A DNA stretch of 63,031 nt, from contig CAMCSA010000007.1 of assembly GCA_945877405.1 (NCBI GenBank), forward strand, positions 1-63,031. Direction: 5' to 3'. The position numbers and the translations under genes were made by a program. The notes under the pieces were generated by a model. That model made no database searches. It was not told where the DNA came from and saw nothing but the letters and a program-made list of their open reading frames with translations. Position 1 is the stretch's first letter, and each line of letters starts with the position of its first letter. The DNA is from an uncultured Erysipelotrichaceae bacterium. GTDB lineage: Bacteria > Bacillota_I > Bacilli_A > Erysipelotrichales > Erysipelotrichaceae. Positions 51,362-52,630 of this stretch are shown here, one piece after another.

Positions 51362-51838
51362 TCATGCCTTCATGGCTTCAAATGCTTTTTCAACATACAT
51401 CTTTTTTGTTAGTGCAATCGCAATGGCGGAAAGAAGTTCATCATCAGCAGACTGGCGGAATACGTTTTCTGATCTGGAAGTGGTGGATAGAAGAATGGAG
51501 CGAAACTGTTCATATACCGTTTCTGTTTCCATATTCTGCTGTTCCATTAACTGCAGAAAAGTACGGATGTGATCGATTGAGGTGACATTTTTAAACAGTA
51601 CCACCAGAATCAGTGTTGCGATCTGTTGTCTTGTATATGTTTTTTTATTGACCCTGGAAATCAGTTTCTGTTTGGCATAGTTGGAAATCATGGAAGGTGT
51701 GACCTTCATTTCTTCAAACTCAGCCAGAAATGAATTGATATATCTGGCAACCTGGTCAAGATATAATCCGATTTCAGGGATTTCCTGCCATGCAGGAATC
51801 ACGAATGTTTCAATTGAATGTGTGAATTCTTTGTTCAT
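51362..51838 (-). CDS. DUF1836 domain protein, predicted DNA-binding regulator
   Basis: The 158-residue protein matches the DUF1836 pattern: IPEIGLYLDQVARYIN, TPSMISNYAKQKLIS and TYTRQQIATLILVVLFKNV, a MerR-like winged helix with a helical tail. The family is predicted to regulate transcription, with no characterised member that I can name. It is divergent from the hemolysin III gene. Its own promoter (TTGACG, 17 bases, TACAAT) ends six bases before ATG 51838, so the mRNA should be leaderless; there is no Shine-Dalgarno site. Confidence 0.85.
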   Translation of the reverse strand: MNKEFTHSIETFVIPAWQEIPEIGLYLDQVARYINSFLAEFEEMKVTPSMISNYAKQKLISRVNKKTYTRQQIATLILVVLFKNVTSIDHIRTFLQLMEQQNMETETVYEQFRSILLSTTSRSENVFRQSADDELLSAIAIALTKKMYVEKAFEAMKA

Positions 51839-51844
51839 GACATC

Positions 51845-51922
51845 ATTGTAAATGGCATTTTAAAAACCGTCAATTGTATATTGTAACCTGTTGACAGGTT
51901 TTTTAAAAACCGATAGTATAAT
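51845..51922. promoter_or_regulatory. Divergent promoters with shared GGTTTTTAAAA element
   Basis: Leftward: TTGACG (51868-51873), 17 bases, TACAAT (51845-51850). Rightward: TTGACA (51891-51896), 20 bases, TATAAT (51917-51922). In both, the -35 runs straight into GGTTTTT(T)AAAA. In the rightward promoter this is a full palindrome GGTTTTTTAAAAACC (51897-51911) inside an over-long spacer, as in MerR-type promoters. A further AAAAACCGATA lies at 51940-51950, with an inverted ATCGG at 51929-51933. Confidence 0.75.
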
Positions 51923-51961
51923 ATTGTAATCGGATAATGAAAAACCGATAAGGAGGTAGAT

Positions 51962-52630
51962 ATGACTGTATATGAGCATACACAACAGTTTCATGTAAAG
52001 GATCCATTCAGTGCACTGACTCATTTTATCGGGTTCATACTTTCAATTGCGGCACTGGCGATACTGCTTGTAAAAGGTGGCGCAGATCGGATGCCTCTGA
52101 TCAATCTGATCGGTGTTTCTGTTTTTGCGATCAGTTCCATTCTTTTATATGGTGCCAGTACAACCTATCACACATTTGATGTCCGTCAGCCTTTTGAAAA
52201 GGCACTCAAGAAAGTGGATCATCTGAGTATCTTCATTCTGATTGCCGGTACATATACACCATATGCATTGCTTGCCTTAGATCAGAAAACAGGTCTATTT
52301 CTGCTTTTGGAAGTGTGGGGAATTGCATTACTTGGAATCATCTTCAAACTGTTCTGGGTAACATGTCCGAAGTGGGTGTCCAGCGTGATCTATATTGCGA
52401 TGGGTTGGGTATGCCTGACTGTATTTCCACAACTGGTGTCAGGATTATCTTCCGGTGCATTCCTTTGGACGCTTGCTGGAGGCATCATGTATACGGTCGG
52501 TGGAGTCCTGTATTCTGTTCCATGCAGGAAACTGGAAGGCAAACCGTTTGGTATGCATGAAATCTTTCATTGCTTTGTATTAGCCGGATCATTCTGTTTC
52601 TTTATGGTCATGCTTCTGTACTTTGTGTGA
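51962..52630 (+). CDS. Hemolysin III family (PAQR-like) membrane protein
   Basis: The 222-residue protein has seven membrane helices with the family's conserved Ser, His and Asp residues: DPFSALTHFIGFILS, ASTTYHTF, KVDHLSIFILIAGTYTP and HEIFHCFVLAGSFCF. PAQR/HlyIII proteins probably are zinc-dependent amidohydrolases acting on lipids. AAGGAGG precedes ATG 51962. Its unusual 20-base-spacer promoter and the divergent DUF1836 gene suggest dedicated regulation. Confidence 0.9.
   Translation: MTVYEHTQQFHVKDPFSALTHFIGFILSIAALAILLVKGGADRMPLINLIGVSVFAISSILLYGASTTYHTFDVRQPFEKALKKVDHLSIFILIAGTYTPYALLALDQKTGLFLLLEVWGIALLGIIFKLFWVTCPKWVSSVIYIAMGWVCLTVFPQLVSGLSSGAFLWTLAGGIMYTVGGVLYSVPCRKLEGKPFGMHEIFHCFVLAGSFCFFMVMLLYFV

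Follow-up and report, generated by a model that had tools for sequence, protein, structure and literature searches.

The locus examined here raises two questions: whether the palindromic DNA between a DUF1836 gene and its divergently transcribed hlyIII neighbor is the operator of the DUF1836 protein, and, if so, whether that protein activates or represses hlyIII. The two genes lie in a 63,031-nucleotide stretch from an uncultured Erysipelotrichaceae bacterium (the window) and are separated by positions 51839 to 51961 (Table 1). Both family assignments are secure; the DUF1836 protein matches PF08876 with 97.9 bits against a curated cut-off of 27, and the neighboring protein scores above the cut-off of both PF03006 and the NCBIfam TrhA/hlyIII model, which identifies it as a member of the PAQR family. 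A sequence-only reading of this DNA had proposed a self-contained module of regulator, operator, and target in which the same element is fused to the −35 boxes of both divergent promoters and a MerR-like protein untwists a 20-bp spacer. The module proved right in kind, and the letters on which it was built (TTGACA, the palindrome, and TATAAT at 20 bp) are correct; the layout and the mechanism fared differently, as described below.

Table 1. Positions of the genes, promoter elements, and operators of the DUF1836–hlyIII locus in the window
Feature	Position	Strand	Evidence
DUF1836 (PF08876) regulator gene, 158 aa	51362..51838	−	Pfam E 4.5e-28; AF2 model pLDDT 91.8, MerR-family matches
DUF1836 promoter: −35 TTGACG (51873-51868), 17-bp spacer, −10 TACAAT (51850-51845)	51845..51873	−	
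GGTTTTTAAAAT adjoining the DUF1836 −35	51857..51868	−	15/21 to operator; AAAAACCGTCAA in 1/38 loci
hlyIII promoter −35 TTGACA	51891..51896	+	
Operator O1 (ACAGGTTTTTTAAAAACCGAT, 19/21), overlapping the −35 and filling the spacer	51894..51914		In register in 38/38 genus pairs
−10 TAGTAT, 17-bp spacing (conserved TA...T)	51914..51919	+	TA...T at 17 bp in 34/38
Alternative −10 TATAAT, 20-bp spacing (choice of the sequence-only reading)	51917..51922	+	TA...T at 20 bp in 15/38
Operator O2 (ATCGGATAATGAAAAACCGAT, 19/21), center ~+14, between start site and ribosome-binding site	51929..51949		36/38 pairs
hlyIII Shine-Dalgarno AAGGAGG	51950..51956	+	
hlyIII/trhA (PAQR-family membrane protein), divergent neighbor	51962..52630	+	PF03006 E 2.1e-47; NCBIfam TrhA E 3.4e-61

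Two candidate operators at the hlyIII promoter

Inspection of the sequence reveals a perfect 15-bp palindrome, GGTTTTTTAAAAACC, at 51897 to 51911. Such a palindrome is not unusual in this DNA, since the window contains 11 perfect 7-1-7 palindromes against a mean of 5.3 in shuffled versions, and conservation must therefore decide. We surveyed 60 genomes of the same genus, 43 of which harbor a relative of the window DUF1836 protein, and compared the 38 divergent DUF1836/hlyIII pairs among the retrieved loci (window included), across which DUF1836 identity is roughly 40 to 57%. The hlyIII promoters of these 38 pairs yield an operator consensus of ATCGGTTATT-N-AATAACCGAT. The first operator, O1, starts exactly three bases after the start of the hlyIII −35 in every one of the 38 pairs, and a second, O2, is found in 36 of them, with a center-to-center distance from O1 of 29 to 38 bp, mostly 35 to 36. 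In the window, O1 and O2 each match the family consensus at 19 of 21 positions and lie 35 bp apart; a score of 19 was reached in none of 20 shuffled windows. The sequence-only reading had staked its module on finding the palindrome near the DUF1836 genes of relatives, where it indeed recurs. That reading had also pointed to a further downstream copy, AAAAACCGATA, which is present at 51940 to 51950 but is the right half of O2 and not a separate copy; the full O2 and the −10 at 17 bp had both escaped it.

The proposed sharing of one element by both promoters does not hold. On the minus strand, TTGACGGTTTTTAAAAT has its −35 at 51873 to 51868, and the copy on this side matches the operator at only 15 of 21 positions, a score with ≈4.5 hits in a shuffled window; one of the 38 relatives has it. 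The GGTTTTTAAAA at the DUF1836 −35 is thus probably a chance occurrence or a very weak site, and the promoter of the regulator gene itself is without a conserved operator. At two further loci of the genus (L010 and L013), DUF1836 has no hlyIII neighbor, and a lone half-site, GAATAACCGAT, resembling a decayed operator, lies upstream near the old position.

An exact scan for AWCGGTTATTNAAWAACCGAT across 84,980 genomes, carried out blind to gene content, returned 40 stretches; a DUF1836 or HlyIII gene is present in 29, nearly always within ~150 bp of the site, three more adjoin a DegV gene, and the remainder look like chance. Exact sites in the 60 genus genomes number 21, 14 of which are at the DUF1836/hlyIII locus, and the other seven all fall within reading frames, which speaks for local regulation of a single target. 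When the genome of the window was scanned with the consensus, allowing up to three mismatches, 11 places were found, of which only O1 and O2 have a convincing setting. In Oscillospiraceae, Lachnospiraceae, other Clostridia, and Lactobacillus jensenii, the divergent target of DUF1836 genes with the same operator is not HlyIII but DegV (PF02645), of the FakB-type fatty-acid-binding family. Judged by this comparative pattern, the short palindromes are very probably binding sites of the DUF1836 protein.

A wider survey of 174 nonidentical DUF1836 domains shows that most other DUF1836 genes are preceded by a second operator dialect, B (AT-N-TAGTWTT-N-AAWACTA-N-AT), which is likewise found at both hlyIII and degV genes. 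Dialect B and the dialect of the window branch (A) have a common frame of 10-bp half-sites around one base.

Promoter geometry, protein fold, and the likely mode of action

The DUF1836 protein was modeled with AlphaFold2 from 24 sequences (pLDDT 91.8). Plain Foldseek gave weak matches with this model; when it was aligned to solved structures with VIA-align, the top 15 rows all belong to one superfamily and MerR-family chains rank first, the best being HiNmlR (5e01) with a Z of 8.4 over 101 residues, where a Z near 8 is middling. CadR, CueR, MtaN, MerR, and SoxR also appear in this ranking. Searching the PDB by sequence turned up no DUF1836 relative of solved structure. The predicted model therefore favors a MerR-like winged helix-turn-helix protein with a dimerization helix, in agreement with the fold proposed by the sequence-only reading. 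In common with HiNmlR, CueR, MtaN, and CadR, the DUF1836 protein would combine a winged helix-turn-helix with a C-terminal dimer-type helix and a palindrome in the promoter spacer; unlike that family, it gives no Pfam MerR match at an E of 0.001 (the scan returned DUF1836 only), its target promoter conserves a 17-bp spacing, and a second operator lies downstream of the start. MerR-fold proteins can repress from the spacer as well as activate, and the fold alone thus cannot settle the choice between activator and repressor.

The strongest competitor to repression is that a dimer on O1 acts as a MerR-type activator or dual regulator, which by untwisting the 20-bp spacer would bring TTGACA and TATAAT into use. 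The MerR-like fold and the position of O1 within the spacer are consistent with this, and for the window and 10 relatives the −10 with the highest score does lie at 20 bp, as in a MerR promoter. Over all 38 hlyIII promoters, however, TA...T is more often found at 17 than at 20 bp (Table 1); in the four promoters without a match at 17 bp, an adequate −10 occurs at 18 bp, and close relatives of loci with the 20-bp TATAAT often lack that box while keeping the one at 17 bp (L005 and L007 beside L008, L014 beside L012, and L015 beside L016). The lengthened spacer of 19 to 20 bp that marks the MerR family is thus not what these promoters conserve, and at other loci the operator is downstream of the −10 altogether. 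Most degV promoters of Clostridia and most hlyIII promoters of class B have a site only there; class A operators at degV are centered at +8 to +16 of the predicted start and class B operators at hlyIII mostly at +3 to +19, and a downstream O2 such as that of most genus pairs would be a roadblock. We consider untwisting unlikely.

Since the operators mostly occupy blocking positions near predicted starts, repression is the best reading. We judge it probable that DUF1836 acts locally, as a dimer of MerR-like fold that represses the divergent hlyIII (trhA), binds the O1 and O2 palindromes, and is released by a presumed membrane or lipid signal; the operators, their positions, the linkage, and the fold come from comparison and prediction, from which we infer dimer binding, repression, and the signal. 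Each dimer would bind one 21-bp palindrome via the recognition helix SMISNY. A dimer at O1 would cover the −35 and the spacer and so block binding of RNA polymerase, and one at O2 would block start-up or early elongation, until the signal releases the protein. One group of loci counts against repression: in 11 of 12 class B loci with a divergent degV, the operator is at −49 of the predicted degV start, upstream of the −35. A role as degV repressor is less obvious there, and this placement could reflect activation or a shared operator. Operators centered exactly at −49 sit between the two divergent −35 boxes at L001, L046, L098, L099, L105, L121, L131, L135, L137, L139, and L141.

The regulator itself would be made from a leaderless mRNA. 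On the minus strand of the window, positions 51836 to 51873 read TTGACG-N17-TACAAT-GATGTC-ATG, and the first ATG of DUF1836 is exactly 6 nt after the −10 in 33 of the 38 genus loci; in the window and in L023, an ATG also occurs at 6 nt and is preceded by an earlier one. With this spacing, transcription would begin at the AUG, and no Shine-Dalgarno sequence was found before DUF1836 in the genus loci. Among 51 long reading frames of the window, a promoter of this type at the ATG is unique to DUF1836 (score of 13.4 versus 6.4 for the next best). The DUF1836 mRNA is accordingly predicted from its promoter sequence to be leaderless, a class already known, which comprises ~9% of mRNAs in streptococci (PMC6431027).

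Two operator dialects and a candidate specificity residue

On a tree of 170 of the surveyed domains, the dialect changes once, as opposed to five changes of target between hly and degV; the operator thus follows the regulator and not the regulated gene. This pattern bears on a very unlikely alternative, namely that another protein binds the palindromes and DUF1836 is merely a neighbor. Binding by DUF1836 is itself a prediction, which leaves this alternative some room, but an operator type that tracks DUF1836 phylogeny across Erysipelotrichales, Lactobacillales, and Clostridia and at two unrelated targets argues against it. Least probable of all is that O2 is an RNA hairpin of the hlyIII leader; O2 is transcribed and palindromic, yet its sequence recurs as O1 ahead of the start site, on which ground this reading was rejected, and the class B degV sites at −49 also speak against it.

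The predicted recognition helix of the window protein (residues 48–56) is SMISNYAKQ, and its Ser52 is the residue that differs between the dialects. All 85 class B proteins with an assigned dialect have Asn in this position, and class A proteins have Ser (57), Thr (1), or Ala (1), with one unparsed. When we masked that column and searched the tree for an independent Ser/Asn switch, only the one change was found. A residue that changes once offers a hypothesis for a specificity switch and not a proof, as linked residues could be responsible. Within the genome of the window, a second DUF1836 gene (G000:C8:41693-41998; L001, L047) lies beside degV; its promoter is likewise of the leaderless type, and a weak site resembling dialect B (17/21) is found at −49.

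In a broader reading, which we hold somewhat less likely than not, DUF1836 proteins may form a widespread family of MerR-fold repressors acting on membrane and lipid genes (hlyIII/trhA, degV/fakB, htpX, and CNNM). A Ser/Asn exchange in the recognition helix would then select one of two dialects that exclude each other (with GGT or TAG at half-site positions 4–6), and the regulator mRNA would be leaderless in Solobacterium and close kin.

Relation to known regulators

Linkage of DUF1836 to hlyIII was noted in 2011, when DUF1836 was proposed to be a helix-turn-helix regulator of hemolysin III (CREST paper, PMC3146951). The gene pair is the same as ours; the DUF1836 passages of that paper do not describe an operator, promoter layout, or mechanism. 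YkrK of Bacillus subtilis, as the title of Lin, Huang and Shaw (2012; ref. 69 in PMC11790237) states, is an htpX repressor with a "redefined" operator. Bacillus-like DUF1836 proteins (PF08876 E 2.2e-14) are encoded divergently from an HtpX-like M48 peptidase, and B. subtilis, among our control genomes, has a DUF1836 match; YkrK is on these grounds almost certainly a divergent DUF1836 protein. On the strength of that title, DUF1836 proteins are already known as repressors, and, for the family as a whole, the sequence-only reading erred in stating that no operator is known. The YkrK–htpX pair resembles the window in that a DUF1836-type repressor with a defined operator is divergent from a membrane-protein gene. 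YkrK-like proteins differ in being very distant (E about 1e-12 to 1e-15), with a recognition helix of TAVQNWVK, and in having an M48 protease as target where the window has HlyIII; their intergenic repeat is AAGTTC..GAACTT versus CGGTTNTTNAANAACCG in the window branch, the published YkrK operator being known to us by title alone. Other YkrK-like DUF1836 genes (L207:133-1482 and L210:2503-3876) are divergent from CNNM/CBS/CorC_HlyC membrane proteins, neighbors that suggest a membrane theme common to the whole family. The hlyIII/trhA promoter of Escherichia coli is likewise acted on by a repressor, FabR (PMC9017321); FabR is nonetheless another regulator, whose further targets are fabA and fabB.

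In the literature we searched, neither the branch operator nor its occurrence in two copies at hlyIII is reported, and nor are the dialects or their link to one helix residue; the operator of the window branch, the dialects, and the predicted leaderless DUF1836 mRNA thus appear to be new. A common, nearly unstudied regulator family thereby gains an explicit predicted binding site, a target set (hlyIII/TrhA and DegV/FakB), and a likely mechanism, as well as a one-residue hypothesis for its specificity. Control of the PAQR proteins of bacteria, a group of still debated role, is placed beside that of the fatty-acid-binding DegV proteins.
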